Origin: Porphyra umbilicalis
Lineage: Eukaryota; Rhodophyta; Bangiophyceae; Bangiales; Bangiaceae
Length of the DNA stretch: 64,000 nucleotides
NCBI GenBank assembly: GCA_002049455.2
Contig: KV918768.1
Coordinates: forward strand, 186,001 to 250,000
Reading direction: 5' to 3'
Position 1 is the stretch's first letter. Each line of letters begins with the position of its first letter. A program made the position numbers and the translations under genes. Below, in pieces: positions 5,492-64,000 of this stretch. A model generated the notes under the pieces. It was given only the letters and a program-made list of their open reading frames with translations, made no database searches and was not told where the DNA came from.

Positions 5492-5493
5492 TA

Positions 5494-10179: not shown

Positions 10180-10194
10180 CAGTCGTTCCACCAA

Positions 10195-11418: not shown

Positions 11419-11766
11419 GTCGTTGAGAGAAGAACATGCTGTGGTTCATTCTTGTTTTTTGTCCCACTGCCGCCCTCGTGGATCTCCCTTGTTGGTGCTG
11501 ATCACCGCCTGTGACTCTCTTGCGTTCTGTTCTGTTTTTTGAAGGGGGAAAAAAGGTCACGGCGGTGGATTTGTGCCCTCTGTGTTCGAGGCGGCTGGTC
11601 CCTTCACGCTTTGAATCAGCATTTTGCGCACTGTGGACGGGCGAGAATAATTGATGCCGACAGCAAAGAGGTGCAATAAACTGCAGCGACCGCCGACTCA
11701 GTCCCGCAGCGCAGAAAATGGACAACGACAAGAAGAACAGGAGCAGCGTGTGTCTACATCTGAGAC
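11419..11766. other. Unique spacer of the giant foldback
   Basis: The spacer is about 350 bp, with the two inner edges still faintly similar. No gene or motif was recognised. Confidence 0.5.
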
Positions 11767-12990: not shown

Positions 12991-13005
12991 TTAGTGGATT
13001 GACTT

Positions 13006-27477: not shown

Positions 27478-27483
27478 TTCCCC
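27478..27483 (-). promoter_or_regulatory. Copia polypurine tract (short)
   Basis: GGGGAA on the minus strand directly adjoins the 3' LTR, the place where plus-strand DNA synthesis is primed. It is shorter than usual. Confidence 0.5.
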
Positions 27484-27498
27484 GGCGGCCGCGGGCGT

Positions 27499-30400: not shown

Positions 30401-32809
30401 GCGGCTGGTCTCGACGCGGTCCCCGACGAGGACCCGGTAGCCACGCTGGTCGATGCCGTAGCCGACGAAGATGCCCGCCACCGCGCGGGGCTGCAGTTTC
30501 TTGCGCAGCTCCGCCGGGGTGTGGATCCAAGCGCGGCAGCCAAACGGCCGGAGGTGCCCGACATCGGGGCGGGTCCCGTAAAAGAGCTCGTAGGGAGTGG
30601 CGGGGCGGTCGCGCCCCATAACCCGGTTCCCGAGGTAGTTGACTGTGACCGCCGCCTCTCCCCAAAACTTGCCGTCCAAGTTGCAGCCGGCCAGCGCCGC
30701 GACGGTCAGCTCAGCGACGACCCGGTTGTAGCGCTCGGCCACCCCGTTGGACTGCGGCGTGTAGCGGGTCGTCGTCTGGTGCTGGATGCCTTTAGCCGCG
30801 AGCCAAGCGGGCCAATCGCCCCCCGTGTACTCCAGCCCATTGTCGGACCGGATGACGCGAACCCGGTGCCCCGTCTGGGTCTCCCAGCGGGCGACCACCG
30901 CCATGACCGCGTTTTTGGCCACGCCCCTCGTCTTGACCGGCACAATCGCCTTAAATCGGGTGTAGTCGACGATGACCCCGACGAAGAAGGTGCTCCCCGC
31001 GGGCGTCGCCTCTTTCATGGGCCCGGCGACGTCGGTGTGCACGACCTGCAGCGGCCCGGTGGTCCGGATGCCCAGCGTAGGGAAGGGGGCCCGCGTCATC
31101 TTTCCCTGGATGCAGGGCGGGCAGGGGTCGGTCCGAAGTGCCGCGAGCCCGGCCTTGTCCAGCACCATTCCCTTGACCACCTTCGCCGTCCGCTCGAGTG
31201 TGGTCGCATCCAAGTGAGCGAAGCGCCGGTGCCACATCGCCGCGGTGGGCGTGGCAACGCTGACGAGGGCGGACCCCGTCTGGGCAATCGTCGGCAGGAT
31301 GTACACCTTGTCCGACAGCACCCCGCGAATCATGTCGCGGTCCCCGTGCCGGATGACCACCCCGCCCCCGCGCTTGAAGGTCACCTCGTACCCGCGCACC
31401 GCCGCCTGGCGCACGGAGAAGAGGGAGGAGGCCAGGCCGGGCACAACCAGCACGTCCTGCAGTGTCAGGTCCATCACCCCTCCCACGCTGTCCACTTGGA
31501 GGAGCGCCGTCCCGCTTGTGCGTGCCGTGCGGTGCCGCCCGTCCGCCAGCATGATGGTGACGGGGGCTCGCCCCGCCACGTTGGTGAGACGGTCCGCAGT
31601 GCCGGTCATATGGTGGGAGGCGCCGCTGTCCATCACCCAGACTGGCGCGGGCGCCTCCCCTATGTCCGCCGGGTCCGCAACGGTCATGAAGGTGGTGCCA
31701 TCACCCCCGGCACCCTCGTCGTCCGAGTCGGCCACCAGTGGCGGCACGTTGTCGTCGTCCTCGGAGTCGCTGAGGAGCTCCGGGATGTCATATGCCTCCT
31801 CCGCGCCGCTCAGGGTCTCCGGGGCGTCCTCGTCCCGCTCCACGGGATCGGCCTCTGGGACCGTATCCACGTCGTGTGCCAGCATGGCCAGCCCCGCAGC
31901 CCCTCCGTCCTCTGCGGGCTTGTCGCCCCTGCTGTTGCTTGGGCAGTCTCGCTTGATGTGGCCGATCTCGTCGCATTTGTAGCAACGGCGGCGCTCCCGC
32001 CCCCGGCGCATCCGGCGGTCGTCCAGTCCGGTGGCAGCTAGGGCGTTGGCCACCTCGCCGACACGGTCTGCCTTGTGGTCGAGCCCGAGCCGCGCCTCCG
32101 CCGCCTGCAGCTGCTCTTGCGCCGTCTCCACCGTCAGGCCGGGCTGCATGGCCAGCACCGTCGCCGTGAGCTCGTACTTCGATGGCAGCCCCGCCAGCAG
32201 CGCTGGCACGAGCTGGGCGTCGTCGATGTCGGACCCCAGCTCCATGAGCTCCCATGCCAGCTCCTCGCCGCGGCTAAAGTAGCGCACGACCGACTCGTCC
32301 CGTCGCATCCTCAGCCCCGCCAGCTCTCGGCGTAGGTTCAGCGCCCTTGCCGGACCGCGTGAGCGGAACGCCTGCGCCAGCGCCGCCCACGCGCCCCGCG
32401 CCGTCGGGTGGCGGCGGAAGGTGGGCATGTGGTGTGGCTTGACGTTGAGCACCATCAGCGACATCGCCTGCTCATCCAGCCGCCCCAGCTCGCCCGCCGT
32501 CGGCTCCCCCGACGTGCTGCCGCTATGTACCCCCGACGTCGCGTCGGCCTCGTCCGTTGGGGCCGGTCGGGTCACTGCCGCCCCGCCGGCCGGAGTCCCG
32601 ACACGGGCCGGGTCCACCGCCGCCCAGCAGCCCTTGAATCGCATCAGGTGCTCAATTTCCGTGCTCCATTGCAAGTAGTTGGTGTCGTCGAGCTTGGCGA
32701 TCCTCGGCACGCCGTCACCCGTCATCTGGCCCGGGCGGATCTTGTCAGCCGCCCCTCGCGTGGCTCGCCGTCCGCCACGTCCGTTTGCCACCGTCCCGGT
32801 CCGGCTCAC
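27499..32809 (-). pseudogene. Copia gag-pol polyprotein, disrupted
   Basis: From ATG 32809: a gag domain (KLDDTNYLQWSTEIEHLM), a zinc knuckle (CYKCDEIGHIKRDC, residue about 275), an aspartic protease motif (MDSGASHHMTG, about 390), and the integrase HHCC region with DDE residues in HTDVAGP, IRSDNG and NGVAERYNR (about 590-690). The N-half of reverse transcriptase runs to TAG 29519-29521. After one extra base near 29400 the frame continues with the YVDDLL active site and RNase H (YSDADYAGD, TEAEYVAGA). The hAT-like insertion at 27742-28540 separates the last segment (IDNQSALALMRN, RTKHIDVAFHF), which ends at 27499. Reverse transcription and integration would occur in virus-like particles. Confidence 0.95.
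27742..28540. mobile_element. hAT-like non-autonomous element nested in copia pol
   Basis: This 799-bp insert is flanked by the exact 8-bp duplication ATGTTCAT (27734-27741 and 28541-28548). Its ends are imperfect inverted repeats, CAGGGCCTGAGG on the left and TAGGGGCTTTGG on the right (reverse complement), matching the hAT consensus YAGNG. The AT-rich interior has recurrent ATATCC/GGATAT motifs. No gene is inside. Removing it with one duplication rejoins the copia frame, so it arrived after the retrotransposon. Confidence 0.87.
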
Positions 32810-33038
32810 TGCCGGTTCGGGTTCCCTGTGGCACCGGTGTCGTCCTCAGACGCCCCCGGGCCCTCCTCCGCGTTCCGCCCCCTTGCCGACACGCCCGCGT
32901 TCACCGCCGCGCGTCGCACCCAGAGCACGTCGTCCACGTACACAACCCGCGTCTCCCCGGTGCAACCCGGGTCGCCCGCCTGCGCACGCATCGTCTTGGT
33001 CCACGACCGCGGAGCGACACCCAGCCCGAACGGAAGGC

Positions 33039-33052
33039 CTGGGCCCATAACC
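33039..33052 (-). promoter_or_regulatory. Copia primer-binding site, half-tRNA type
   Basis: Directly inside the 5' LTR the minus strand reads GGTTATGGGCCCAG. This is complementary to the anticodon stem-loop of eukaryotic initiator tRNA-Met (CUGGGCCCAUAACC) rather than to a tRNA 3' end. Drosophila copia is known to use an internally cleaved initiator tRNA-Met in this way. Confidence 0.8.
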
Positions 33053-33614
33053 TGTTGTGAGCGCAAAGTCCCACGCGCGCGCAGTCGGAGTGCGCGGGCG
33101 TGCCGTCTCTCCCACTGTGCCAAAGTCGAGCAGAGAGGTTCAACGCTTGTCCTTTCACTCGTGCGCCGGGGCTAGTCCCCGGTGCCTGCCTCTCTTATAC
33201 CCTCTCGGCCGTGGCCGCTCCCCCAGGCACCCGCCCTCTCAGCGTCCCCTAGCGGTCCCGTCTCCCCGCCGGGCTCCCCCGCCCGGCTCCCCCAGGAGCC
33301 TAGGACAGGCTGGGCTCCCCCACACCCAGCGCCCTCCACGCGTCGGAGCCGCCGCTGGTTGAGTTGCTCCGCCTCCCCGCCGCTCCGCCACGCGCCCGGC
33401 CTTCGGCCGCTTCCGGCTTGGGTGGTGCCCACCGTCCCGGTGGCGCCTCCCCCGACGGCCGCCGCCAGGCGCGCGGCGCTCCCTGGGTGGGGAGCCTCCC
33501 CCGCGCCACCGGGAGGGTGCAGCCCTCCCGATGGCGGCACCCAGCCGCGGGGACTTCGCGGGTGCCGCGGGCACGGGGATGCAATTAGTACTTGCTCCCC
33601 CCGTGCCCACAACA
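33053..33614 (-). repeat. Copia 5' LTR
   Basis: 562 bp and 5' relative to the minus-strand transcript. TG...CA ends and the CCGCG duplication adjoin it. It should carry the promoter of the element. Confidence 0.95.
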
Positions 33615-45082: not shown

Positions 45083-47772
45083 TCACGCCGTCACCTGAAA
45101 CACATCCGCCGGCCACTCGCCTGCCGGCAGCCCCCCGTTGTCGACCAACACGTCCCGCAGCGTGCGCCGCCCCGCCGCCACGGCGCGCCCCAGGCGCGTG
45201 CGCCCGACCTCCCCCCACTCGACGTTGCGGTAGAAAAACCGGTCGCCGTCGCGGAGGCGCGCAAACTGCTCCCGCAGCGCCGCCGCAAAGAGCCCGCCGA
45301 GCACCCCCCCCCCACGTGCGCCTCACACAGGCCGCCGATAAACGGGTCCACGTCGTCGACCGACGCGTACACCGACGCGAGGGCGGCGGCGGTGGGGGCG
45401 TCCCCCCCCCCCGGCACGTCCGCAAACGCCCGGTGCGGCGCCAAGCCGTACATGACGCGCGCGGCGTTGAGGCCCGGCGCCCCGTGGTCCCGCCCCCGCG
45501 CGCAGTTGAGGGCGACCAAGTCGAGCCCCGCCCCGCCCGACGCCGCAAAGAGGCGGTGCCGCAGCGCCGGCACGACGTGGCGGTCGACCTCTTGGCCGAC
45601 CGTCACGGCGGCGCCGAGGAGGATCGGCCCGACGCCCGCCGCCGCCGTCCAGTTGGGCGCGAAAAAAACGTCGGCGAGGGGCGTCCCGTCGGCAGCCCCG
45701 CGCCGCGCCCGCGCGTCGCGCACGGGCAGCGCGTCGGGCACCGCCGAGTGGCCAAAGCGGAACGCGACGGTGGCGAAAAAGTTGGACAACGACGGATCGA
45801 CCGACGCGTTGTAGCCCGCGTAGGGCGGGAGGCCCCCGCCGCCCGCCCCGGGCGGCGGCCCGAGCGCCCGCGGCAGCCACTCATTGTACGTGACCGCTTG
45901 GGCGGTGGCGGCCACGAGGCGGCGCGCCTCCTGGTAGAGCCGCTCGTCGGCCCAGGCGGGAAAGTCGGCGGCGAGGACGCGCGCCACGCGGTTGTGCTCC
46001 CGCACCCAGAGGGTGTGGAGGGCGGTCAGCGCCGGCTGCTCGTTGGCCCGCCGGTCCCCGGCGGCGAAAAAGGCGGGCGCCGTCGACGGCTCGTTGGGGA
46101 GCACCGTGCCGAGCACCGCCTCGGCGTTGCGAGGGAGCAGCGCGCGGGACGCGGCCGACGTGAGGGGGCACCCGCCGCCGCTGCCGCCGCCACTGTCGCC
46201 GCGACCGCCGTAGGCGCCGCCACGGCCGCGGCCGCGGCGGCGGCGCCAGTCGCGGCGGCGGCGCCAGCCGCGCCAGCCGCGCCAGGTGCGCCCCCCACCG
46301 CCGCCGCGGCCGCGGCCGCGGGAGCGGTACCCCCCCCGGCGCACCCCCCAGGCGGAGCCCCACCCCCCCGCTCGGGCTCACCCCCCCCCCCTCCGTGCGC
46401 CCCCCCCCCGCGGGCACCCCCCCCCCCCGGCGGCGGCGGCACGCCGACGCGCAGCCGCCCGCCCGCCCCCTCCCGCAGCGCGCCGACGCGCGCCCACCCC
46501 CCCCCATACACGTGGCTCGCATCCAAAAAGGAGGTTGCGAGGTTGGCGTGCTCCCGCCGCCCCTCCCCCCCCCCCCCCGCGCCACGCGGGAGCGCGCAAA
46601 CGCGAGGGCGGCGCGGGGGCGCCCCCCCCCGCCGCCGCCGCGCAGCACGTCCGCGTCGTCGGTTAGCGGGATGGGGGCGGCTTCGGGGGCGACCCCCCCC
46701 CCCGACGACGCCGTCGCGGCCATGTCGTGGTCGATGAATTGGCCCCACCAGGTCCACAAGTCGGTCAAGCCGGCGGCCGACGGGATGGAGACGCCCGCCG
46801 GCTGGTCTGCCACCGCGTTGGACACGGTGCGGCAGTTTGGGCGGGACGGAAACGCCATGGACGCGCCCGCCCCGCGCACGTCGCCGCCGCCGCCGCCGCC
46901 GCCGCCGCCGTCACCGCCGCCGCCGTCGCCCGCCGCCGGCCACACCCCGTCCACGGCCGGGTCGATGCGGCGGAGGAGCCCGCCGGCCGTCCCCCACCCC
47001 GCCACCCACCGCCGGTTGCACACGCCCGTCACCGACGCGTAGCGGGAGGCGCACGGGGCGCCGCCCGCCACCAGCGCCGCATTGTCCGCCGCCGCCGACG
47101 CGGCCGCGGTCGCCCACGCGGCGAGGCGCCCGCTCGCCCGCGCGGCGCCCCGCGGCAGCCGCACGCCGACGGTCAACACGGACGCGCCGTCCACCGCCCC
47201 CTGGCGTGCCAAAAACGCCCACGTCGTCCCGATGAGCGACGGCAGGTCGGCCGTGTCGGCGTCCCCCCCCCCCCCGCCGCGTCCGTCACCACCGCGTCGG
47301 TGCGCGCCTTTGCCGCGCGGACGACGCGGAGCGTCATGGACGCGCCATTGTGAAAGACGGCGGTGACGGCCGAGCCGTTGGCGCCCGCCGCCGTCAATGA
47401 CGCGGCGCCGCGGCCGAGCGTGAGCGCGGCGACGGCGGGGAGGGTGAGGCGGTCGAGGAGGGCGGGGAGGGGGAGCGCCACCCCGGCCCGCGCGCTGTGC
47501 CACGCGCCGTAGCGGGTGGCGGTGCGGGCGCTCGCGGGGAGGGCGTCTACCGCGGCGGGCGCGGCGGCCCCGGCCGCGGCGGCGGTGGCGGGGAGGAGGG
47601 CGGCGGCGGCGAGCGCAACGGCGGCGGCGGCCGCCGCGCGCACGCCGCCGCGCGGTGCGCGCGGGCGGCAGACAGCGGGTGCCGCAGGTGGCGGCCGCGA
47701 CGTGCGCCGCCGCGGCGGCGGAGGCAAGGTCGGCCGGTCCGCCGCGCCGCCGTCGCAGCGCCGCGCGTCCAT
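45083..47772 (-). CDS. Animal-type haem peroxidase (frame broken at homopolymers)
   Basis: Haem peroxidases of this superfamily oxidise halides or organic donors with hydrogen peroxide, usually secreted or membrane-bound. From ATG 47772 comes a hydrophobic leader (AAAAAVALAAAALLPATAAA), then VTGVCNRRWVAGWG, and the distal-His motif WGQFIDHDM with its calcium-binding surroundings. NLATSFLDASHVYG, ALHTLWVREHNRVA, YQEARRLVAATAQAVTYNEW, the proximal-His motif FRFGHS, NCARGRDHG and DPFIGGLCEAH follow. The product is close to 890 residues, without introns. Breaks occur at 47263-47275 (C13), 46565-46577 (C13), somewhere in 46289-46430 and 45304-45313 (C10). Each is fixed by one extra base, so undercalled homopolymers are likelier than a dead gene. 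Confidence 0.88.
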
Positions 47773-48850
47773 GGCCGTTGGCGACCGGGCACCACCGTCG
47801 ACGCGGCCGCAGCGGCGGCGGCGGCGGCGGCGGCGGCAGCGGCGGCCGGGGGGGAGGCAGCCACGCGGCGCAGCAACGGCCGACGCGCCAGCCGGCAGGC
47901 GCGGGCGGCGCCCCGCCACGGGGCGCCGCCCTTAAACACCCCCGGCGGCAGCGCGACGGCGGCGACGGGCGCCGGCAGGCGCGCACCGGCACAGTGCGCG
48001 CGGCGGCGCGGCGGCCGCGCGGCGGCGGGGGCGGAGGGCGCCCATCTTTCCCCCGCCGCCGCCCGCCCGTCCGCCGCCCTCCGCGCCGACCGACAAAACG
48101 CAGGGGCGGGGGACGCACCGCATCGCCGCCGTCACGGTGACAGCCCAGAGGGGGGGGGGGGGGGGGGGGGGGGGGGGCGTGCCGCGGTGCGCGGGGGGGG
48201 GCGGACATTGCCCGCGCACGGCGGCCGCCCCGCCCTGGCTCCACCCGCCGCCGGTGAGTGCACGGCAGCCGCCCGCCGCCGACGTGCCGCCGCAGAGGAG
48301 GGGCGGGTGGGGGGAGGGGGGGGGGGGAGGGGGGGGGGGGAGTGCCACTGCCGACGGTGGTGGCGACGGCGGCAGCGGCGGGCGGCGCGCCGCGGGGTGG
48401 AGGAGGGGGGGGGAGCGGTGGGGGGGCGGGTGCGCGGGTGCGGCGGGGAATGCACGCGGACCGCGCCGCCGGCGGCGTCGGGCGGGCCGCCGCGCGGCGC
48501 CACACTGAGAAAAAAAAAACAAAAAAACCAGGGACCCGACGCGCGGCACGGGGCCCCGCCCCGCCCGCCGCCGTCGGCGCGCCCCCGCCGGTGCGCGGCG
48601 CGCCCGCGGCGGCGCGCAATGCACGCCCGCGGCGGCGGCGCGGGGGGGTGGCGCCACCGGCGCACGGGCGGGCTGCCTTTGCGCCTCGGGGGCGGGGCGG
48701 GGGTGCACTCACAACAACGGCGGCGGCGCGGCGCGGCGCACCACGGCGCGGCGCCCGTGGCGCGGCGCGTCCGCCAGGACGGGTCATTCCATAGTCCCGG
48801 TTGGGAATTATTTTTTGGGCATCGGTTGGGGACGCCGCCCCGCTCCTAAC
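47773..48850. other. GC-rich upstream region with a G28 tract
   Basis: The segment lies upstream of the peroxidase. It carries a run of 28 G at 48150-48177 and further G runs near 48310-48345. Open frames reflect composition only. It ends abruptly at the tandem Crypton repeat. Confidence 0.4.
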
Positions 48851-49349
48851 CGTGTTATATCTTAAGGTCCTAGGCACGATCGTCGGACGGCGTCGGACGT
48901 CGCAGCGACACTGCAAACAGCGATCGGTCCTACGGTAGCCCCCTGATGTCCGACGCCATGCCGAGCTAATTCCATCCCCTCAACGGCCATATGCGGGTGT
49001 TCTGAGATTCGTTCTGACCATCGAATGAGTCCATGGACACGATCCGCTCGAGCACCAAAATACAGTAGGAAACGATCACGGACATCGATGTGTGGTTGTC
49101 GCGTCCTCCGAGACTCGCACGCTGCCCACCACCCAATGCAGTCGCAAAGGTCACTCCTCATCACGAACCGTAGCCTTTCTGCACATCACCGCAACTCGCG
49201 GCGGCAAACCCGAGGTTTGACGCCTTTCCTCATAGAAGTTTGACCTTTAACGGCATTGGCTTGCCAGCTTGCTGGGCGACCTGAGGACTGATGCAGTCAG
49301 CGGGAGGTCAGGACTGCTGTTTTGAGCTGGGGACACAATGCAATGTACT

Positions 49350-49971
49350 CTAGAGACGGCGCGTAGCGGCCACGCGGAACAGACAAGGAAGCGGGGAATC
49401 GAAACCGCAGGCGGAAGCATGCCGGGGCCAGCGGTCCATGTATCCTTTCAGGTAGGCTGAGCGCGGCTGTGCTGCATGCGGGTCAGAAAAACGGTGGCTG
49501 ATCTCGACTAGTTCGGGACGCCGGGGGCCGCCCGCTGTTGGGGCGTGAAAGCCATCCCAGTGCACCGGCCAGGGTTTTGAGGGCATGGACATGGGTGCTT
49601 TAGTTCGTGTCTTGCCGCATTTCCTGCACGTCCTTGGGCTGCGGGTGCAACACATAAGGAGCGCCAGAAATTGGGCCCCAAACCTCTTCGGTGGGTCTGC
49701 TGTGCTCGTATGGCCAGCTGTCGATGAGCCTTGGGAATGAAAACGTTCTAGAGAATCGAATGCTCGGAGAGACTGGTCCTGTTCGTAGCTCAGCACTGGC
49801 ATTAGCACCTTGTTGACGGAGCGGTTCAACGAATTCTAATTGTTTCGGAGCAGGCTGGACGCGTCCAGCATCGGCGGTAGTTGTAAACGTGGTGGCAAAC
49901 CCTTGTTGAGGGCACGCGGAGGGAGTCTGACCTGCACAAGTTGTTGGGTGGCGCCGGTATCGGTGGGGCAA
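49350..49971 (-). other. Two overlapping unrecognised frames downstream of the recombinase, unit 1
   Basis: Frames 49350-49829 and 49600-49971 both look partly protein-like (PYVLHPQPKDVQEMRQDTN; VEISHRFSDPHAAQPRSAYL). The first is preserved unchanged in unit 2 (57782-58261); the second has lost its start there. No family is recognised, and they might be exons of one spliced gene. Confidence 0.25.
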
Positions 49972-50750
49972 GAGCAGGCGTCAGCTGTCATCTGGGGGGG
50001 GCCGCACGAGAGTCGGATCGCAGCAGAGGGACGTGGGGCTGCGGCTGGGGCGGGCGGCATCCGTGGTGGGCGGCAAGTCGGCCGGTCATATCGTGAGGCG
50101 GCGGGCAAGCGGCAAATTGCGCCGATGGGGTGCGGAGCAGAGGTGGGCGGCATCGGTGTTGGGGTGCGGGGCCTCGGTGAGCGGTGTTGGTGATGCATGT
50201 TCTGGGGCGGGTTCGACTCGGTGGGGGAGGGGTGGAGGTTTTTGGTGCCGGTGAGGTCTGGGGCGGTGGCGGGAGGCATCTGTCCGAGCGAGCTGAGGGG
50301 TATTGGAATCAATGGGGAGCGGACCGGCGGCACCTGGAGGCGCGGGCGGGCGGGGGATGGGCGGTTGCTGCCGGTGGGGTGCTGCATGGAGATGGAAGGC
50401 GTCGGTGGTGAGCGGGCCGCGAGGAATTTGAGTCGATAGTGGGTGGGCGAGCTGCGGCTGGAAGTGAAGGGGGGGCGGGTGGAGAGCCAATTGTGTCGGT
50501 GGCGTGTGGTACGGGGGCGGGCGGCGTCGGTGAGGGGCGGGCCGCGAGGTATTTGAGTCGATGGGGCTGGACGAGGGGCGGCTGGTGGCGGGGGGGGGGG
50601 GGATGGCGGAGTGCAGATTGCTTCAGTTACGTGAGTGACGGGGGGGGGGGCCTATCGGTCGTGTGCTGGCCGGTGGGGATTCATAATGATCGAGAGCGGG
50701 TGAAGTGGCTGGTGATTTTTGTGGCGCGGTGGGGCGGTTGATTGTAGAGG
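49972..50750 (+). repeat. G-rich degenerate tandem repeats, unit 1
   Basis: Imperfect units of about 120 bp contain GGGCCGCGAGG followed by ATTTGAGTCGAT (about 50415 and 50540), with more diverged copies upstream. The zone lies directly 3' of the recombinase gene. Confidence 0.5.
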
Positions 50751-50813
50751 TGATACAAAAGCTTGAGTATGTTGGTGATAGAGTTTAAAACGAAGAAAAA
50801 AGACGCACACGCT

Positions 50814-53800
50814 TTAGAATTGTGGAGGGTAGTCGGCCCTGGCCAACTTGAACACCTCTATCGCTCCTCCCCTCCCCGCATACTTGGCTTTGATATCGGA
50901 CACAATGGTCTCGACGCCCACAGCCGCGCCGCGCTTGCCGTACTCGGATGCAAACGCGAGGTAAATACCCGCGCGTGTGCTGTACAGCTTTCCCTGCCGT
51001 CGCGCACGGCCCTTATCGCCGACCTTGCGCCAGCGGTCCCCAAACAGGGCCTCCAACTCCCGGATGGCAACCCGCTTCTCCAACCCCGTTGCGTACTCGT
51101 CCAGAGCAACCTCCCAGCCCTTTCCAACCGCCATCGTCAGCATGGGGACGCACTGGCGCCCGTCCTCGAACAGATCCACGCCATCCAGCTTGTGTGCCAA
51201 TTGCAGCTGCCGCACATTGTCCCTGTCACGAATGAGGGGCGCCGATAAGGGCACCGCACAGGCCACAGGCAAAGGGGGGCGTGAGGACAAGGGGGAGCGT
51301 GCCGTCGTAGGTGACAGCACGACACCGAGAGACGCAACTGGTGCGCCACGGGCGACTAGCCCGCCCGCATCGACCGCCGCGGGATGCACAGCGGTTTGGA
51401 TGGCCGTCGACGGGCCAGCCACCGGCGAGATAGATGACACGGTGCCCCAGGCTGCGGTCGTCGGGGTAGCTCCCACCGCCACCCCCCCACCCCAAGACAG
51501 CGAGGCGACCTCCCCATCGCGCAGCGCGGCGACCTCGCGACGCAAGTCTCGCAGCTCCTGCGCCATTGGAGCGACAACCATCATTAGCTCGTCAAACCGT
51601 TCGTCGTTGCGCGTCCGCGTGGTCGCCGCCACGGCGTCAATCTGCCGACTGAGGCGCTGCTCGACGTCTAGGACCCCCGACGAGCTCGCCGCCGCAACGG
51701 CCTCCACGGCTACCTTGACTGCGCGCGACATGGCGGGGAGTACCTCCGCAACCGCCGTCGCCACGGCCTCGTTCGAGTCCGACAGAGCCTGCTTCATCGT
51801 TGAAACGTACGCCCGAAAGTTCTCCGTGTCCAGCAGCGGGTGGCGGTGGATGGCACAGTCGGGGGGGATGGTGGTAGTGGCCATGCGAGCCGCCCAGGTT
51901 TGGAAAAATATAGACCGCGCCCAACGCGCGAGGCCGAAAAAGTCCAAAAGGGCCTTGTCATAACATTTTGGGTCCGCCCCGACCCGAGTTGTGTACGCCT
52001 CCTCCTCGCGCTCCAGCCACGGGCACAGCGTCCGCTGCAGCTCGACGGGGACGGCGACAGTCAGCCGCGGGGTGATGGGAGACTGGCAGTCGGGCGCTCG
52101 TCCGGACAGGGCGACCATCATGGGCACGTTGGGTATAAGACCATCGTACACCCCGTTGGCGGCACCTTTCTCCCACATCCCGTGGAGCAAGTTGTCGGCC
52201 AACGACACGCTCGCTTCCTTTCCTCGCTGCGCGGCGGCGCGGCGAAACGCGTGCGTCGACCGCGCCTCCCCCGGCAGCCCGCCGCCCCGCCAGGCCTTTT
52301 TGAGCTGGGAAAGATGATACTCGTACGGCATCTCCTTGAACAGCCCCCCACGAACCGCCGGGAACTGCCGCCAGCAGTACCACTGCCGGAATCCCATATG
52401 AGACCCCGCCGCCCAGTAGAAGACCGGGTCTACACCGGCCAGCAGTAGCTCCGCGTCGGCAGGATTAAAGTTTGGTGAAAAGGAAACCGGGGGTGTGAGG
52501 AGGTCCTGTCCGGGGCGGTGGCAAGTCGCCACCAGCGCGTCAGCGGCGGCGCCAAGCGGGCATAGCCACGGGTCGACGTGACCAATGGCACCCAAGCAGT
52601 AGGCGCCCCCCTCCTGCGTTTTTGTCGCGCTGACGTACGTGCACAACACGTCGACCGTAGCGCCGCCGGTGCCAAACATGGACGGAAAGCGGCGCACCGA
52701 AATGTCGCTCCACTCCAGCCCGCGTGCCGTGGCGCCGCGCGCCTCCAGCGAGAAGGTCTCCAAAAACAAACTGCTTAAAAGCATGTGCTTTTTCAGCTCT
52801 TCTGCGGTGAAGGCGCGCAGCAGCAGGCCTTCGGTCATCGTCCGCCGCTCTGCATCCGGTAGCGTGGGGTCCCGCTCCCCCATGGCCTTGGCCACGCCCG
52901 CGGCGTTGTTCTCCAGGAACCGCTGCCGTTTCGACTGGTTGACAACGAGGTTGGCCGCCTCGTAGCTGCCCACCGACTCGAACGCCTCCACGTCGTACTG
53001 GGCACACTGCGTGCACTTGCATCCCGTCCACAGCTTGTTGAATATAGATCCCACCTTTGACAGTGCGCTCTGGTGCATGCGCAGCACCGACTTACCCACC
53101 TTCCGCAGGTGCGGCGTTGGGACCGCCCCATTCACGCCATCAGCGGCTCCCACAGGTGTCTGGGGAGCGTGGGGCGGAAGCGTGGCGTCCCCGCCGGCCG
53201 CAGCCGCCCCAACAGCCTCAGTCGTGTTAGGTGAGGTGCGGGGGGGGGCTGAAGTCCGACCGGTATGCGCCCCAGTCGGTGGCCGGCTCGCCGCCGGCGA
53301 CCGAGCAGTGCGCGGCACTGCCGAGGATGCAGTGGCCGCCGAAGCGTTGCTTGCGGGTGCGCGCGACGTGGCCGCCAACGAAGCCGACGGGGGCTCGTCC
53401 GAGTCGTCGCCGTCGCTGCCGCTGCTACCGCCGACCGCCGACTCGTCCGAGTCGGGATCGCCGCCGGCTGGGTCGCGGTCGCCACGCAGCCCCGGCGGAA
53501 GTGGAGCCTGACCGGCGTTCCGCTCGCCCACGACCGTGTGGTCGGCCGCCGCCGCCGCCGCATCGAGCGCTGTAGTGGGAGCGGGGAGCGCCTGGCCGCG
53601 TCGGCGTCGACGGTGGCGACGGAAACGGCCCTTCTCCGCGTTGAGGAAGGTGACGGCCATGTGCCGGTTGATCGGTACGATCACGCTGCCGACCTGGGTA
53701 CTCTCGGAGGAGGCGCCGAAGGCGCAATACGCCTCGACCGACGCCCCGTATGACTTGGTCGTCTTCTTGATACCCTGGTTGGTACCACTCACCGTGTGGA

Positions 53801-54863
53801 GCGTCCAGCTGTTCGCGGCAGCGATGGCCACGCTGGCGAGCGTCGCGTACTGCTGAATCTCGGCGAGGTGGAGGGCCTGCAGCACGACAGCCTGGACGTT
53901 GCACTTGCTGAACTGGAAGAGCTGAGCGTGCTTGGCGACGACAACCAGGTTCGCGTACGCACGCTTGTCCGCCGCACGCTGCTCGGGCATGCGCCGCCCG
54001 GGCCCCTCTGCGAGCGCCTCGATAGAAGCGTCGGGGCACCCCGGCAGGACGCCAATGCGAATCAGCCGCCGGCCAACGTCCACTTGGCTCAAAAACAGGC
54101 GCTTTACCAGGTTAACCGGAGTCATCCCGGCCACACCATCCTCGAACTGCTCGTATCCCGCGGACAGCTCGGCGGTCACCTCCCCCCTTAGTCCACCGTG
54201 CACATGGACGGCGGGGGCGACGACCAGGTTCGTTTTCAGGACTCTCCGCCCCCCGTCGGTACGGGACCCGCCGCCCACACCGTCCGTGCTACCCCGCCCA
54301 TTGCCTGCAGGTGCACCATCCAGCCCGTCGGCGCCCGCGCCGCCGCTTGGACCTCGCACCACAGGCGAGCCCCTTGGCCCACCATCGGGGGGGGCGGCGA
54401 CGTGGCCGATGACACCCCCGAGCGACGAGGGGCACCCCATCGTGGCACTCACGCGGCCACCACCGCCCGTCGACGCGGTGACTGGCGACAGGGCGGAGGT
54501 GGACGCGTGGGAGACGCGACGGTTCGGCGTGGCCAGTGCGGCGGCTGCGGGGGGGGTGCTCAACGGGCCCGCCGTGCGCAGAGTGGCCGTGGGGATGGTG
54601 GCAGGAGCGGAGGCGCTTGTTGTCGGTGGGGGGGAAGCGGTACGCGCGGGGGCGGCATGGCGACGACGGGTCGACCGACGGTCGCCAGTCGACGGCGGTT
54701 GTGCCCGGCCACGCTTGGCCGGGCGTGTCGTCGATCGACTTGCCCCCGGCATTGAGCACCACTGTTTCCTGAGATGGGCAACGAGGCGCACAAAAGGTGG
54801 GTGCAGGGACGTGCCGTTCATGGGAGGGGCGCGGCGTGAGCGCGACATGAAAACATAATGCAC
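50814..54863 (-). CDS. Crypton-type tyrosine recombinase with GCR1_C-like domain, unit 1
   Basis: An uninterrupted 1,349-residue frame. The first 200 residues are Ala/Gly/Ser-rich and of doubtful start. Conserved sequence begins near VVAPAVHVHGG. After a second linker, the core-binding part (about 580-700, with CKCTQC) leads into the catalytic domain. It shows Arg714 in ARGLEWSDI, Lys748 in SATKTQEGG, His871 and Arg874 in THAFRR, Trp897 in HGMWEKG and Tyr906 in GVYDGLIP, nine residues after Trp, as in tyrosine recombinases. The C-terminus (about 1220-1330; GKGWEVALDEYATGLEKRV, LEALFGDRWRKV) matches the GCR1_C DNA-binding domain of fungal-type Cryptons. It should excise and integrate the element through a circular intermediate. 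Confidence 0.87.
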   Translation of the reverse strand: MHYVFMSRSRRAPPMNGTSLHPPFVRLVAHLRKQWCSMPGASRSTTRPAKRGRAQPPSTGDRRSTRRRHAAPARTASPPPTTSASAPATIPTATLRTAGPLSTPPAAAALATPNRRVSHASTSALSPVTASTGGGGRVSATMGCPSSLGGVIGHVAAPPDGGPRGSPVVRGPSGGAGADGLDGAPAGNGRGSTDGVGGGSRTDGGRRVLKTNLVVAPAVHVHGGLRGEVTAELSAGYEQFEDGVAGMTPVNLVKRLFLSQVDVGRRLIRIGVLPGCPDASIEALAEGPGRRMPEQRAADKRAYANLVVVAKHAQLFQFSKCNVQAVVLQALHLAEIQQYATLASVAIAAANSWTLHTVSGTNQGIKKTTKSYGASVEAYCAFGASSESTQVGSVIVPINRHMAVTFLNAEKGRFRRHRRRRRGQALPAPTTALDAAAAAADHTVVGERNAGQAPLPPGLRGDRDPAGGDPDSDESAVGGSSGSDGDDSDEPPSASLAATSRAPASNASAATASSAVPRTARSPAASRPPTGAHTGRTSAPPRTSPNTTEAVGAAAAGGDATLPPHAPQTPVGAADGVNGAVPTPHLRKVGKSVLRMHQSALSKVGSIFNKLWTGCKCTQCAQYDVEAFESVGSYEAANLVVNQSKRQRFLENNAAGVAKAMGERDPTLPDAERRTMTEGLLLRAFTAEELKKHMLLSSLFLETFSLEARGATARGLEWSDISVRRFPSMFGTGGATVDVLCTYVSATKTQEGGAYCLGAIGHVDPWLCPLGAAADALVATCHRPGQDLLTPPVSFSPNFNPADAELLLAGVDPVFYWAAGSHMGFRQWYCWRQFPAVRGGLFKEMPYEYHLSQLKKAWRGGGLPGEARSTHAFRRAAAQRGKEASVSLADNLLHGMWEKGAANGVYDGLIPNVPMMVALSGRAPDCQSPITPRLTVAVPVELQRTLCPWLEREEEAYTTRVGADPKCYDKALLDFFGLARWARSIFFQTWAARMATTTIPPDCAIHRHPLLDTENFRAYVSTMKQALSDSNEAVATAVAEVLPAMSRAVKVAVEAVAAASSSGVLDVEQRLSRQIDAVAATTRTRNDERFDELMMVVAPMAQELRDLRREVAALRDGEVASLSWGGGVAVGATPTTAAWGTVSSISPVAGPSTAIQTAVHPAAVDAGGLVARGAPVASLGVVLSPTTARSPLSSRPPLPVACAVPLSAPLIRDRDNVRQLQLAHKLDGVDLFEDGRQCVPMLTMAVGKGWEVALDEYATGLEKRVAIRELEALFGDRWRKVGDKGRARRQGKLYSTRAGIYLAFASEYGKRGAAVGVETIVSDIKAKYAGRGGAIEVFKLARADYPPQF

Positions 54864-57282
54864 AGAGGCAGCGGTTCAAAGGGACACAGCAGTAACAACC
54901 CGAGCATATAAAGGTCACAGGTCAAGCAAAGATTGAGGCAAGTCAATGACGTGCTCCACCACTTTGGGCGCACGACAGCAGCATGGGGCCCCGTCATCAA
55001 ATGCACGCCTACCCAGAGAGTCGCGTCACACGCCCACATCACGCACACGCACATGCTGTTCTGGCAATGATAAGCCCAGAACGGCAGGAAGACAACCCAA
55101 AAGGAAGATGCAGCGTAGTGACGTACCAAAAGTTATATCTGTATGTCTGGGTCGCCCCGGGGCTCAAGTTGACAGAAGGAGGCAACTATGTAGACGTACA
55201 CGTCTGTCCACCACCCCTCTCCACCCAACACGTGTGTACCAACCCGCGGCGCGGGGCCACAGCACCGACTGCCCCACCCCCACCGTCCAGCCCAGGCAGT
55301 CAGAGGCCAGGTTGGCGCGCCCTCCCCGCGCCACCCTGGTCTCTTGGCCTCCCGCAATCCCTGGACGCACGTCCTCCGACGTAGCCGCACACACCCCGCG
55401 CCGGAGCCTGCCCCCTCCCCACGAGCCTCAGCACCGCCACGGGCCACTCGCACTCCCACTGAGCTCCACGGACGCTCCCACCCCTCCCGCCCCGCCCACC
55501 CACAGCACAGGACCCACTCAACCGCGGCGACACCCACCAGTCCCACCGCAACAGCGTGCCTGGAGTGGCCGGTGCCGCTCACCCCACGCAGGAACACCCT
55601 TTGGCCTCCCCCTGCGGGCCACGGTGGCAGGCGCGCAGGGGCTGGCGTCGTGCAGCAGGTACAGAGGGGCGCCGGTGACGGGACCTTCGGGCACCGGCGT
55701 CAAACCTGCGAGTGGTTTGGGGCCAGGTGACGGGCGTGAGGCGGGCGGTGGCGTGACGGGCACGATTCGGGCCGAGTCCAGGTATCCTCGTGCCAGGGGG
55801 TGCCGGAGTGTTGAGATGGTAGTGAGTGAGGACACGGGAGCCCCAGAACACCAGCGTCGGAAACACGGGGAGCAAAAACAAGCTACAGCGACGAGGTCGG
55901 GCAGCGTCGGAGAGGTGATCACCAGCCTGCCGGCGTGGGGGGGGGGGGGGCGGGGGCGGGGGTGCGCGCGACGAGAGAGTCACGCAAGGCGAAGTGTGGA
56001 GAGGCGCACGGTGCGCCACGCTCGCGTAGAGCCGCGAGAGCACACGCGCTCGCGGCAGCGCGGGACGCAGCCGTCCGTCTCCCTCTCCCAGCTGAACAGC
56101 CCGTGCGTGAGCGGTGGCCCACGGGACGGCGCGGCGCGCCTGCCGCGCTCTCAGCAGCCGCGCGGTGCGGAACAAAAGCACCCAGTCGGTAGGGGAACAG
56201 GGGGGGGGGGGGACGAGGCCAGGGTGATGCACGGGGAGGACACGCAGCAACGTGGGCGCGGGCGGCGAGCCTAGAGAGCACCGCAGCAGGGCGCCTCCCG
56301 CCCGCCCCCACCCACCCCCCGCCGCCACACGTCGACCAACAGCGAGGCAGCGGGTGTACGTGGGCGGGGCCGCCCGAGGGAGGTTCGAGGTCCTCATCGG
56401 GGGGCGGGCGACAGCAGCCGCACCGGGCTACGAGTGCGCCAGCCAGTGGCCGCCCACCGGTGGTGGCGGCGAGCGAGGAGTGGCGCGCTCGTGGAGGGGG
56501 GGGCGAGGCGGCGCCCCTATGCCCATGCGAGTAGGCAACGCCAGCGCCAACGGCAAGGGCGAGCAGTGGTGGCGCGCGCGCGCGCACGCGGGGCCGACGC
56601 CGAGGTCCCTCCTCGCGACCCGGGAAGACCGAACCGCATCGGGGCGGGAGGCGAGGAGCCTCGGCGGCCGGAGCGACTCGGTGCAGCCAGGAAAGCCGGT
56701 TGCGGGAGGAGTGGCGTGCGCCCTACACGGGCGGGAGACGCGCTCTGCCCACACAACCCACGCCCCCCCCCCCTCCCCCGCTGCGCCACTGAAGCAGCGA
56801 CGACCACCGACGTATTGGCCGACGGCGTGGCTGGGCGCCGTTCGCTCGGCGGCGGCAGCGGCGGCGGTTGCGATCGCTGGCGCCAAAATCATCGGGAACG
56901 CTAGGATGCACGGCCGGACCGGTCGACACGTCTCTGAGACGCCGTGTGGCGGGGGGGGGGGGGGCACACCCCGCGGCGTACTCGTGTCCCACGGCCAGTC
57001 CGACAGTCCAGGGGGAGCAATGTAGTTGCTCCCCCTCAACCCAGACGGCCTCAACGTAGTGGGCGGGCGGGGTGCGAACAAGAAAGAGACACAAGATACA
57101 CGAGCGCGGGGCGGTGCGGGGTTCAACCACTGGCTGTGCTCCCCGCAGTGGCAGCAGCGCGTATGGGCCATGCGGACGATGGAAGCCCCCCTTCCGATAT
57201 GAATTAGACGTCCGACGCGCCCAAATTTACACCGCGGCCCGCGTCCGATCCTGTCCGACGCGTCCGACCGACCGCGAATACC
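54864..57282. other. Upstream part of unit 1, no supported gene
   Basis: The segment carries the likely promoter zone of the minus-strand recombinase and long C/G-rich tracts. Open frames on both strands (for example 54946-56274 and 55579-56397) have the low-complexity look of GC-rich DNA. TCCGACGCG-like phrases repeat at 57207-57275, just before unit 2 starts. Confidence 0.4.
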
Positions 57283-60200
57283 CGTGTTATATCTTAAGGT
57301 CCTAGGCACGATCGTCGGACGGCGTCGGACGTCGCAGCGACACTGCAAACAGCGATCGGTCCTACGGTAGCCCCCTGATGTCCGACGCCATGCCGAGCTA
57401 ATTCCATCCCCTCAACGGCCATATGCGGGTGTTCTGAGATTCGTTCTGACCATCGAATGAGTCCATGGACACGATCCGCTCGAGCACCAAAATACAGTAG
57501 GAAACGATCACGGACATCGATGTGTGGTTGTCGCGTCCTCCGAGACTCGCACGCTGCCCACCACCCAATGCAGTCGCAAAGGTCACTCCTCATCACGAAC
57601 CGTAGCCTTTCTGCACATCACCGCAACTCGCGGCGGCAAACCCGAGGTTTGACGCCTTTCCTCATAGAAGTTTGACCTTTAACGGCATTGGCTTGCCAGC
57701 TTGCTGGGCGACCTGAGGACTGATGCAGTCAGCGGGAGGTCAGGACTGCTGTTTTGAGCTGGGGACACAATGCAATGTACTCTAGAGACGGCGCGTAGCG
57801 GCCACGCGGAACAGACAAGGAAGCGGGGAATCGAAACCGCAGGCGGAAGCATGCCGGGGCCAGCGGTCCATGTATCCTTTCAGGTAGGCTGAGCGCGGCT
57901 GTGCTGCATGCGGGTCAGAAAAACGGTGGCTGATCTCGACTAGTTCGGGACGCCGGGGGCCGCCCGCTGTTGGGGCGTGAAAGCCATCCCAGTGCACCGG
58001 CCAGGGTTTTGAGGGCATGGACATGGGTGCTTTAGTTCGTGTCTTGCCGCATTTCCTGCACGTCCTTGGGCTGCGGGTGCAACACATAAGGAGCGCCAGA
58101 AATTGGGCCCCAAACCTCTTCGGTGGGTCTGCTGTGCTCGTATGGCCAGCTGTCGATGAGCCTTGGGAATGAAAACGTTCTAGAGAATCGAATGCTCGGA
58201 GAGACTGGTCCTGTTCGTAGCTCAGCACTGGCATTAGCACCTTGTTGACGGAGCGGTTCAACGAATTCTAATTGTTTCGGAGCAGGCTGGACGCGTCCAG
58301 CATCGGCGGTAGTTGTAAACGTGGTGGCAAACCCTTGTTGAGGGCACGCGGAGGGAGTCTGACCTGCACAAGTTGTTGGGTGGCGCCGGTATCGGTGGGG
58401 CGAGAGCAGGCGTCAGCTGTCATCTGGGGGGGCCGCACGAGAGTCGGATCGCAGCAGAGGGACGTGGGGCTGCGGCTGGGGCGGGCGGCATCCGTGGTGG
58501 GCGGCAAGTCGGCCGGTCATATCGTGAGGCGGCGGGCAAGCGGCAAATTGCGCCGATGGGGTGCGGAGCAGAGGTGGGCGGCATCGGTGTTGGGGTGCGG
58601 GGCCTCGGTGAGCGGTGTTGGTGATGCATGTTCTGGGGCGGGTTCGACTCGGTGGGGGAGGGGTGGAGGTTTTTGGTGCCGGTGAGGTCTGGGGCGGTGG
58701 CGGGAGGCATCTGTCCGAGCGAGCTGAGGGGTATTGGAATCAATGGGGAGCGGACCGGCGGCACCTGGAGGCGCGGGCGGGCGGGGGATGGGCGGTTGCT
58801 GCCGGTGGGGTGCTGCATGGAGATGGAAGGCGTCGGTGGTGAGCGGGCCGCGAGGAATTTGAGTCGATAGTGGGTGGGCGAGCTGCGGCTGGAAGTGAAG
58901 GGGGGGCGGGTGGAGAGCCAATTGTGTCGGTGGCGTGTGGTACGGGGGCGGGCGGCGTCGGTGAGGGGCGGGCCGCGAGGTATTTGAGTCGATGGGGCTG
59001 GACGAGGGGCGGCTGGTGGCGGGGGGGGGGGGATGGCGGAGTGCAGATTGCTTCAGTTACGTGAGTGACGGGGGGGGGGGCCTATCGGTCGTGTGCTGGC
59101 CGGTGGGGATTCATAATGATCGAGAGCGGGTGAAGTGGCTGGTGATTTTTGTGGCGCGGTGGGGCGGTTGATTGTAGAGGTGATACAAAAGCTTGAGTAT
59201 GTTGGTGATAGAGTTTAAAACGAAGAAAAAAGACGCACACGCTTTAGAATTGTGGAGGGTAGTCGGCCCTGGCCAACTTGAACACCTCTATCGCTCCTCC
59301 CCTCCCCGCATACTTGGCTTTGATATCGGACACAATGGTCTCGACGCCCACAGCCGCGCCGCGCTTGCCGTACTCGGATGCAAACGCGAGGTAAATACCC
59401 GCGCGTGTGCTGTACAGCTTTCCCTGCCGTCGCGCACGGCCCTTATCGCCGACCTTGCGCCAGCGGTCCCCAAACAGGGCCTCCAACTCCCGGATGGCAA
59501 CCCGCTTCTCCAACCCCGTTGCGTACTCGTCCAGAGCAACCTCCCAGCCCTTTCCAACCGCCATCGTCAGCATGGGGACGCACTGGCGCCCGTCCTCGAA
59601 CAGATCCACGCCATCCAGCTTGTGTGCCAATTGCAGCTGCCGCACATTGTCCCTGTCACGAATGAGGGGCGCCGATAAGGGCACCGCACAGGCCACAGGC
59701 AAAGGGGGGCGTGAGGACAAGGGGGAGCGTGCCGTCGTAGGTGACAGCACGACACCGAGAGACGCAACTGGTGCGCCACGGGCGACTAGCCCGCCCGCAT
59801 CGACCGCCGCGGGATGCACAGCGGTTTGGATGGCCGTCGACGGGTCAGCCACCGGCGAGACAGATGACACGGTGCCCCAGGCTGCGGTCGTCGGGGTAGC
59901 TCCCACCGCCACCCCCCCACCCCAAGACAGCGAGGCGACCTCCCCATCGCGCAGCGCGGCGACCTCGCGACGCAAGTCTCGCAGCTCCTGCGCCATTGGA
60001 GCGACAACCATCATTAGCTCGTCAAACCGTTCGTCGTTGCGCGTCCGCGTGGTCGCCGCCACGGCGTCAATCTGCCGACTGAGGCGCTGCTCGACGTCTA
60101 GGACCCCCGACGAGCTCGCCGCCGCAACGGCCTCCACGGCTACCTTGACTGTGCGCGACATGGCGGGGAGTACCTCCGCAACCGCCGTCGCCACGGCCTC

Positions 60201-63200
60201 GTTCGAGTCCGACAGAGCCTGCTTCATCGTTGAAACGTACGCCCGAAAGTTCTCCGTGTCCAGCAGCGGGTGGCGGTGGATGGCACAGTCGGGGGGATGG
60301 TGGTAGTGGCCATGCGAGCCGCCCAGGTTTGGAAAAATATAGACCGCGCCCAACGCGCGAGGCCGAAAAAGTCCAAAAGGGCCTTGTCATAACATTTTGG
60401 GTCCGCCCCGACCCGAGTTGTGTACGCCTCCTCCTCGCGCTCCAGCCACGGGCACAGCGTCCGCTGCAGCTCGACGGGGACGGCGACAGTCAGCCGCGGG
60501 GTGATGGGAGACTGGCAGTCGGGCGCTCGTCCGGACAGGGCGACCATCATGGGCACGTTGGGTATAAGACCATCGTACACCCCGTTGGCGGCACCTTTCT
60601 CCCACATCCCGTGGAGCAAGTTGTCGGCCAACGACACGCCCGCTTCCTTTCCTCGCTGCGCGGCGGCGCGGCGAAACGCGTGCGTCGACCGCGCCTCCCC
60701 CGGCAGCCCGCCGCCCCGCCAGGCCTTTTTGAGCTGGGAAAGATGATACTCGTACGGCATCTCCTTGAACAGCCCCCCACGAACCGCCGGGAACTGCCGC
60801 CAGCAGTACCACTGCCGGAATCCCATATGAGACCCCGCCGCCCAGTAGAAGACCGGGTCTACACCGGCCAGCAGTAGCTCCGCGTCGGCAGGATTAAAGT
60901 TTGGTGAAAAGGAAACCGGGGGTGTGAGGAGATCCTGTCCGGGGCGGTGGCAAGTCGCCACCAGCGCGTCAGCGGCGGCGCCAAGCGGGCATAGCCACGG
61001 GTCGACGTGACCAATGGCACCCAAGCAGTAGGCGCCCCCCTCCTGCGTTTTTGTCGCGCTGACGTACGTGCACAACACGTCGACCGTAGCGCCGCCGGTG
61101 CCAAACATGGACGGAAAGCGGCGCACCGAAATGTCGCTCCACTCCAGCCCGCGTGCCGTGGCGCCGCGCGCCTCCAGCGAGAAGGTCTCCAAAAACAAAC
61201 TGCTTAAAAGCATGTGCTTTTTCAGCTCTTCTGCGGTGAAGGCGCGCAGCAGCAGGCCTTCGGTCATCGTCCGCCGCTCTGCATCCGGTAGCGTGGGGTC
61301 CCGCTCCCCCATGGCCTTGGCCACGCCCGCGGCGTTGTTCTCCAGGAACCGCTGCCGTTTCGACTGGTTGACAACGAGGTTGGCCGCCTCGTAGCTGCCC
61401 ACCGACTCGAACGCCTCCACGTCGTACTGGGCACACTGCGTGCACTTGCATCCCGTCCACAGCTTGTTGAATATAGATCCCACCTTTGACAGTGCGCTCT
61501 GGTGCATGCGCAGCACCGACTTACCCACCTTCCGCAGGTGCGGCGTTGGGACCGCCCCATTCACGCCATCAGCGGCTCCCACAGGTGTCTGGGGAGCGTG
61601 GGGCGGAAGCGTGGCGTCCCCGCCGGCCGCAGCCGCCCCAACAGCCTCAGTCGTGTTAGGTGAGGTGCGGGGGGGGGCTGAAGTCCGACCGGTATGCGCC
61701 CCAGTCGGTGGCCGGCTCGCCGCCGGCGACCGAGCAGTGCGCGGCACTGCCGAGGATGCAGTGGCCGCCGAAGCGTTGCTTGCGGGTGCGCGCGACGTGG
61801 CCGCCAACGAAGCCGACGGGGGCTCGTCCGAGTCGTCGCCGTCGCTGCCGCTGCTACCGCCGACCGCCGACTCGTCCGAGTCGGGATCGCCGCCGGCTGG
61901 GTCGCGGTCGCCACGCAGCCCCGGCGGAAGTGGAGCCTGACCGGCGTTCCGCTCGCCCACGACCGTGTGGTCGGCCGCCGCCGCCGCCGCATCGAGCGCT
62001 GTAGTGGGAGCGGGGAGCGCCTGGCCGCGTCGGCGTCGACGGTGGCGACGGAAACGGCCCTTCTCCGCGTTGAGGAAGGTGACGGCCATGTGCCGGTTGA
62101 TCGGTACGATCACGCTGCCGACCTGGGTACTCTCGGAGGAGGCGCCGAAGGCGCAATACGCCTCGACCGACGCCCCGTATGACTTGGTCGTCTTCTTGAT
62201 ACCCTGGTTGGTACCACTCACCGTGTGGAGCGTCCAGCTGTTCGCGGCAGCGATGGCCACGCTGGCGAGCGTCGCGTACTGCTGAATCTCGGCGAGGTGG
62301 AGGGCCTGCAGCACGACAGCCTGGACGTTGCACTTGCTGAACTGGAAGAGCTGAGCGTGCTTGGCGACGACAACCAGGTTCGCGTACGCACGCTTGTCCG
62401 CCGCACGCTGCTCGGGCATGCGCCGCCCGGGCCCCTCTGCGAGCGCCTCGATAGAAGCGTCGGGGCACCCCGGCAGGACGCCAATGCGAATCAGCCGCCG
62501 GCCAACGTCCACTTGGCTCAAAAACAGGCGCTTTACCAGGTTAACCGGAGTCATCCCGGCCACACCATCCTCGAACTGCTCGTATCCCGCGGACAGCTCG
62601 GCGGTCACCTCCCCCCTTAGTCCACCGTGCACATGGACGGCGGGGGCGACGACCAGGTTCGTTTTCAGGACTCTCCGCCCCCCGTCGGTACGGGACCCGC
62701 CGCCCACACCGTCCGTGCTACCCCGCCCATTGCCTGCAGGTGCACCATCCAGCCCGTCGGCGCCCGCGCCGCCGCTTGGACCTCGCACCACAGGCGAGCC
62801 CCTTGGCCCACCATCGGGGGGGCGGCGACGTGGCCGATGACACCCCCGAGCGACGAGGGGCACCCCATCGTGGCACTCACGCGGCCACCACCGCCCGTCG
62901 ACGCGGTGACTGGCGACAGGGCGGAGGTGGACGCGTGGGAGACGCGACGGTTCGGCGTGGCCAGTGCGGCGGCTGCGGGGGGGGTGCTCAACGGGCCCGC
63001 CGTGCGCAGAGTGGCCGTGGGGATGGTGGCAGGAGCGGAGGCGCTTGTTGTCGGTGGGGGGAAGCGGTACGCGCGGGGGCGGCATGGCGACGACGGGTCG
63101 ACCGACGGTCGCCAGTCGACGGCGGTTGTGCCCGGCCACGCTTGGCCGGGCGTGTCGTCGATCGACTTGCCCCCGGCATTGAGCACCACTGTTTCCTGAG

Positions 63201-64000
63201 ATGGGCAACGAGGCGCACAAAAGGTGGGTGCAGGGACGTGCCGTTCATGGGAGGGGCGCGGCGTGAGCGCGACATGAAAACATAATGCACAGAGGCAGCG
63301 GTTCAAAGGGACACAGCAGTAACAACCCGAGCATATAAAGGTCACAGGTCAAGCAAAGATTGAGGCAAGTCAATGACGTGCTCCACCACTTTGGGCGCAC
63401 GACAGCAGCATGGGGCCCCGTCATCAAATGCACGCCTACCCAGAGAGTCGCGTCACACGCCCACATCACGCACACGCACATGCTGTTCTGGCAATGATAA
63501 GCCCAGAACGGCAGGAAGACAATCCAAAAGGAAGATGCAGCGTAGTGACGTACCAAAAGTTATATCTGTATGTCTGGGTCGCCCCGGGGCTCAAGTTGAC
63601 AGAAGGAGGCAACTATGTAGACTTACACGTCTGTCCACCACCCCTCTCCACCCAACACGTGTGTACCAACCCGCGGCGCGGGGCCACAGCACCGACTGCC
63701 CCACTCCCACCGTCCAGCCCAGACAGTCAGAGGCCAGGTTGGCGCGCCCTCCCCGCGCCACCCTGGTCTCTTGGCCTCCCGCAATCCCTGGACGCACGTC
63801 CTCCGACGTAGCCGCACACACCCCGCGCCGGAGCCTGCCCCCTCCCCACGAGCCTCAGCACCGCCACGGGCCACTCGCACTCCCACTGAGCTCCACGGAC
63901 GCTCCCACCCCTCCCGCCCCGCCCACCCACAGCACAGGACCCACTCAACCGCGGCGACACCCACCAGTCCCACCGCAACAGCGTGCCTGGAGTGGCCGGT
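57283..64000 (-). repeat. 8,432-bp direct repeat, unit 2 (cut by window end)
   Basis: It is collinear with 48851-55570 in the same orientation. Differences seen include C/T changes near 59845 and 59861, one near 60151, and shortened G runs at 60291-60296, 62816-62823 and 63056-63061. The unit continues past the window. Confidence 0.85.
59244..63220 (-). pseudogene. Crypton-type tyrosine recombinase, unit 2, frameshifted
   Basis: This is the same protein as at 50814-54863. The G run that is 7 long in unit 1 (51861-51867) is 6 long here (60291-60296). It shifts the frame between the catalytic domain and the GCR1_C-like C-terminus, which lies on a separate frame (59244-60353). Two further G-run differences near 62816 and 63060 change the low-complexity N-terminus. 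All catalytic residues are kept. The defect may be real or a homopolymer sequencing error. Confidence 0.8.

Follow-up and report, generated by a model that had tools for sequence, protein, structure and literature searches.

The 64,000-nucleotide stretch of Porphyra umbilicalis contig KV918768.1 that was analysed (the window, 64% GC; its contig is C8 below) carries near its end an 8.4-kb unit in two head-to-tail copies, which raises the question of what this unit is and how it came to be paired. A sequence-only reading had taken the pair for two copies of a Crypton-type element, the unit at 48851 beginning again at 57283 in the same orientation and nearly identical. This description held over the full length of the unit: the two copies align by BLAST at 99.787% identity across 8433 columns and differ by 11 substitutions and seven one-base indels, all seven in G runs. 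A direct repeat of 8.4 kb is far beyond chance. The 17-mer CGTGTTATATCTTAAGG is present at exactly two sites in the window, 48851 and 57283, and the left-terminal 20-mer of the unit, with up to three mismatches allowed, was found only at these two positions among the matches listed for the 83.8-Mb assembly. The same reading had proposed that the contig be followed further to see where unit 2 ends and how many units follow. Unit 2 runs 1709 bp beyond the window; its last base, C8:251709 (65709 in window numbering), corresponds to the last base of unit 1, and other DNA follows. Two full units and no third were found from window position 44001 to C8:268000. Six 10-kb loci compared with themselves, each shorter than would be needed to reveal a complete second unit, showed no further whole-element tandem. 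The left flanks of units 1 and 2 are different DNA, as are their right flanks. As a separate observation, four of the 11 substitutions are clustered within about 200 bp (55096-55296). The coordinates of the features are collected in Table 1.

Table 1. Positions of the paired units and their predicted features, in window numbering.
Feature	Position	Strand	Remarks
Unit 1, complete element	48851..57282	-	8432 bp; strand is that of the recombinase gene
Unit 2, complete element	57283..64000	-	8427 bp; first 6718 bp in the window, remainder C8:250001-251709
Outer CC core at the left of unit 1 (putative)	48850..48851		Flank ..CTCCTAA
Left subterminal boxes of unit 1	48882..48954	.	Unit positions 32, 42 (GTCGGAC), 98 (GTCCGAC)
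Predicted tyrosine recombinase ORF of unit 1	50817..54863	-	1349 aa; GTG as listed start, codon 6 the first in-frame ATG
GCR1_C-like DNA-binding region (predicted)	50961..51101	-	Residues 1255-1301; under the Pfam cut-off
NDC10_II-matching region	51816..52748	-	Residues 706-1016; R709, K748, H871, R874, H894, W897, Y906; this protein alone under the Pfam cut-off
Right subterminal boxes of unit 1	57210..57268	.	Unit positions 8360, 8403, 8412 (GTCCGAC)
Unit-unit joint GAATACCCGTGTTAT	57276..57290		Putative strand-exchange core CC at 57282-57283
Unit 2 recombinase gene, two open frames	59247..63220	-	Frames 60227-63220 and 59247-60353; G-run indels inside the gene

The position of the unit ends can be compared with those of relatives on other contigs. 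Searching with the terminal sequences of the unit (183 and 170 bp) gave four places each, the pair included; for the right end the additional places were on C278 and C262, and for the left end on C25 and C262. The C278 copy, which corresponds to unit positions 5392-8432 and is 94.55% identical, follows the unit up to GAATACC(C) and then passes into unrelated DNA, and the C25 fragment starts with CCGTGTTAT, preceded by unrelated DNA. Since the points at which these copies depart from or join the unit coincide with the unit ends in the pair, the boundary of the duplication is evidently the element's own end, in agreement with the earlier interpretation of the locus as a tandem of a mobile element. 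The C278 copy stops at a pair of inverted 15-bp arms, GTACCGACGGGGGGC and its complement (L024 / C278:8461), which suggests a fold-back rearrangement. In the element-end comparison, C34 and C162 both read CATACGG just before diverging and the C12 element seems cut at both ends; these three were excluded from the counts.

The joints of the pair read CTCCTAA-CC-GTG on the left, GAATAC-CC-GTG in the middle and GAATAC-CC-TATAC on the right, and all three would fit a 2-bp CC exchange with zero extra bases. The outer left end lies at AACC in three of three cases (C8, C25 and C262, the C262 end being placed by eye), whereas the unit-unit joint reads ATACCC; around the C262 element AACC is seen, by eye, on both sides. 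As for terminal direct repeats, CC is present at all joints, and inspection by eye around the C8 pair revealed no 6-bp repeat. No end-to-end inverted match was detected by BLAST of the unit against the contig, and a test for inverted symmetry about the CC core was negative, the best arrangement pairing 6 of 11 positions where random places most often reach 7. The sequence formed by joining the two outer flanks, that is, the empty site, was not found in the assembly.

Both ends of the unit carry short subterminal boxes. GTCCGAC or its complement GTCGGAC occurs nine times in unit 1, with six of the nine sites in the outer 110 + 110 bp, where 0.06 would be expected from the 14 sites in window positions 1-48850. 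The Poisson value for this clustering is 8e-11, still <1e-6 after multiplication by the approximately 8000 possible 7-mers, and is optimistic because the motif was picked after viewing the sequence. The orientation of the boxes at unit positions 32 and 42 is opposite to that of the right-end boxes. A similar arrangement is found in the C262 element, which is 7869 bp long, has CC at each end and shares 65% DNA identity with the unit over the matched stretch: with one letter relaxed, its boxes lie 33, 44, and 100 bp from the left end and 74, 31, and 22 bp from the right end, compared with 32, 42, and 98 bp and 73, 30, and 21 bp in the unit. Six of the eight relaxed boxes in C262 are thus within 2 bp of the end distances of the unit, and the right end of C278 retains all three boxes. 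We propose that the GTCCGAC boxes are binding sites of the recombinase.

The only gene recognised in the unit is predicted, from its residues and domain matches, to encode a tyrosine recombinase. Among the loci compared, 11 other contigs carry relatives of this protein, and the catalytic residues were aligned for the window protein and those of C89, C162, C195, and C12. The C262 piece, which has six stops, was left out of this alignment, and C34, C369, and others were included in a separate scripted alignment only, from which hits spanning 250 query positions or fewer were dropped. R709, K748, R874, H894, W897, and Y906 are invariant in all five aligned sequences, and H871 is kept in four and is Gln in one, so the R-H-R-Y set of tyrosine recombinases is present (R709, H871, R874, and Y906; both Arg and the Tyr in 5/5, the His in 4/5). 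The spacing of R709 to the next Leu, Trp, Asp, and Ile fits box I of the tyrosine recombinases. In C34, H894 is replaced by Tyr, followed by a stop.

The Pfam family NDC10_II matches all five aligned family sequences, with a best E value of 2.6e-16; the window protein alone scores 18.2 against a Pfam cut-off of 26.3. GCR1_C matches three of the five at E <= 0.1, and the other two pieces end before this region. In the window protein alone the GCR1_C match scores 19.6 to 20.5 (cut-off 23) and lies C-terminal of the recombinase region, with E values of 0.0011 for the whole ORF, 0.00059 for the C-terminal part and 0.00024 for the unit 2 piece, all under the cut-off. A search of the genome with PF16787 identified six places, five above the cut-off, compared with none in 14 control genomes; two lie on contigs that the DNA search missed (C353 and C356), and the C8 gene is absent from the six. 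The sequence-only reading had called the unit Crypton-type, and the tyrosine recombinase residues together with NDC10_II and GCR1_C, here below cut-off, would make up the CryptonF domain set. A PDB search with the protein gave two hits, with E values of 0.39 and 0.44, which were taken as chance; a PDB search with the family profile and searches of NCBIfam and PHROGs gave no hits. An alignment-free structure prediction of the catalytic region was discarded (mean pLDDT 33.8).

Five substitutions between the units fall inside the recombinase gene and four of them alter an amino acid. The split frame in unit 2 could be decay or sequencing error, which are indistinguishable here because the differences include G-run indels. 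In the C20 relative (L027:7057-7955), a tandem array with an approximately 164-bp period, its repeats about 94% alike, lies in or beside the recombinase region.

The unit also contains a divergently oriented ORF of 442 aa (54946-56274). It has no Pfam match and was rejected as cargo: it may simply have stayed open by chance in DNA of high GC content, since its sole match among the other loci compared is in the C278 copy. Neither a reverse transcriptase nor a DDE transposase match was found by Pfam in the recombinase ORF and the 442-aa ORF.

Pairwise comparison of the recombinase genes gave dN/dS ratios of 0.10 for C34-C162 and 0.17 for C12-C162, and of 0.23, 0.38, and 0.46 for C8-C262, C8-C89, and C8-C195, the C8 ratios being rough because dS exceeds 1 in those pairs. 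The close pair C34-C12 has a dN/dS of approximately 0.8. From these values, the distant relatives show the signature of purifying selection, which is not seen in some recent copies. The two units of the pair differ by 11 substitutions in about 8426 compared sites (0.13%), and the unit differs from the C278 copy by 152 in 3031 sites (5.0%); judged by this divergence, the pair is young relative to its family. With C278 as the outgroup, five of the 11 substitutions could be polarised, three to unit 1 and two to unit 2, as would be expected of two real copies.

The pair is probably a recent head-to-tail arrangement of a CryptonF-like DNA transposon, formed via a circle, or a dimer circle, made by the recombinase. 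The recombinase would probably bind the GTCCGAC boxes near both ends and would join the two ends at the short CC core, releasing a circle with the joint GAATAC-CC-GTGTTAT; the chromosomal joint at 57276-57290 is the sequence expected of such a circle joint. The circle would then insert at a short site resembling AACC, and the pair would have arisen either by insertion of a circle at one end of a copy already in place or in one step from a dimer circle. We infer the circle, the box binding and the succession of steps from the sequence.

Among the alternatives, the one that survives best assigns the recombinase a role in the first circle or tandem only, the present pair being the product of homologous recombination that united a circle with a resident copy, or of unequal exchange in a formerly longer array. 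This would yield the same exact joint, and the sequence does not discriminate between the two routes; we nevertheless judge it unlikely, as no third unit is left in the interval that was searched and a circle or an earlier tandem is still required. It is a variant of the recombinase-made circle rather than its opposite. Less probable again is an assembly artefact, in which two haplotype versions, or reads from a circle, were strung into a tandem and each chromosome carries one copy. Just 11 substitutions between the units would be a plausible haplotype difference, but the breakpoints lie exactly at element ends known from other contigs, and a haplotype duplication should copy the flanks, whereas the two units have different neighbouring DNA and each outer flank was found whole only once, at C8, with short pieces recurring on other contigs (8 of 10 rows of hits). 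A conventional tandem duplication that did not involve the recombinase, made through template switching or end joining at short CC/ACC homology, is very improbable: the joints do share a mere 2-3 bp, as in microhomology events, but such a process must strike both element ends exactly by chance and produce the expected circle joint with nothing lost or gained.

With formation through a recombinase-made circle as the preferred explanation, a more specific version can be put forward tentatively, and is in our estimate rather unlikely: the end of a resident element could be a favoured insertion site, at which circles dock by 2-bp CC exchange and build arrays. If so, the joint at 57283 would preserve in the chromosome the trace of a circle made by a eukaryotic recombinase, and would also be a recombination site that can be used again.

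The putative label CryptonF-like is based on the predicted domain set and the architecture. CryptonF elements are described as combining a tyrosine recombinase with GCR1_C and short terminal direct repeats (PMC3212892). The unit resembles them in its predicted tyrosine recombinase and GCR1_C region, in the lack of visible terminal inverted repeats, in low copy number and in a proposed circle, which for Cryptons was put forward by analogy with prokaryotic elements (PMC3212892). It differs in its host, probably a red alga and thus outside the fungal and oomycete hosts named in that account, and in an exchange core that seems to be 2 bp, where the Crypton terminal repeats described are 4-6 bp, with 6 bp the usual length in fungal and oomycete elements (PMC3212892). 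The two copies in tandem are a further point of difference from CryptonF, and the three subterminal boxes per end may be another. As to the host, phycobilisome linker matches (PF00427) were reported at 12 places in the genome, four on C665, apparently a plastid contig, and eight on seven other contigs, and among 14 control genomes Synechococcus elongatus alone had a match; combined with the genome size and the 64% GC, this indicates a red alga, a glaucophyte being improbable. Cbf2/Ndc10 is counted as Crypton-derived (PMC3212892); the recombinase region here is related in sequence to domain II of Ndc10/Cbf2 (PF16787), but unlike that protein it retains the catalytic residues, and its gene lies inside a mobile unit.

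Starships, very large elements that carry cargo and have a captain gene at one edge, provide another comparison. The unit measures only 8.4 kb, its recombinase start is approximately 2.4 kb inside and not at the edge, and no cargo was recognised in the frames scanned (the recombinase ORF and the 442-aa ORF), all unlike Starships. The likenesses are the tyrosine recombinase, putative short direct repeats and a proposed circular form (PMC12506042, PMC12134995), for which, in Starships, reportedly no data yet demonstrate a circular intermediate (PMC12506042).

Among the titles and abstracts listed from the open-access literature, none described Cryptons in tandem or Cryptons of red algae, and the 535 Crypton entries given in one column of PMC8729191 are not linked to red algae in the accompanying passages. 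The pair probably extends the hosts of CryptonF-like elements to red algae. This recent tandem, in which the units meet precisely at their ends, provides a concrete sequence target for circle detection, and the marked ends, the conserved boxes and one open recombinase frame make binding and strand exchange testable in vitro.

Several other features lie in the window. An ORF at 45881-48916 (- strand) matches animal haem peroxidase (E 1.2e-7) and its listed start falls within the left end of unit 1, which may place the insertion near the 5' end of a haem peroxidase-like gene. Direct repeats of 562 bp (99.3%) at 26916-33614 surround an ORF at 29519-32809 (- strand) with gag, integrase, and RVT_2 matches, by which this region is recognisable as a predicted Copia-type LTR retrotransposon. 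A large inverted repeat occupies 10181-13004, with arms of approximately 1.24 kb that are 98.3% identical and a spacer of approximately 340 bp.
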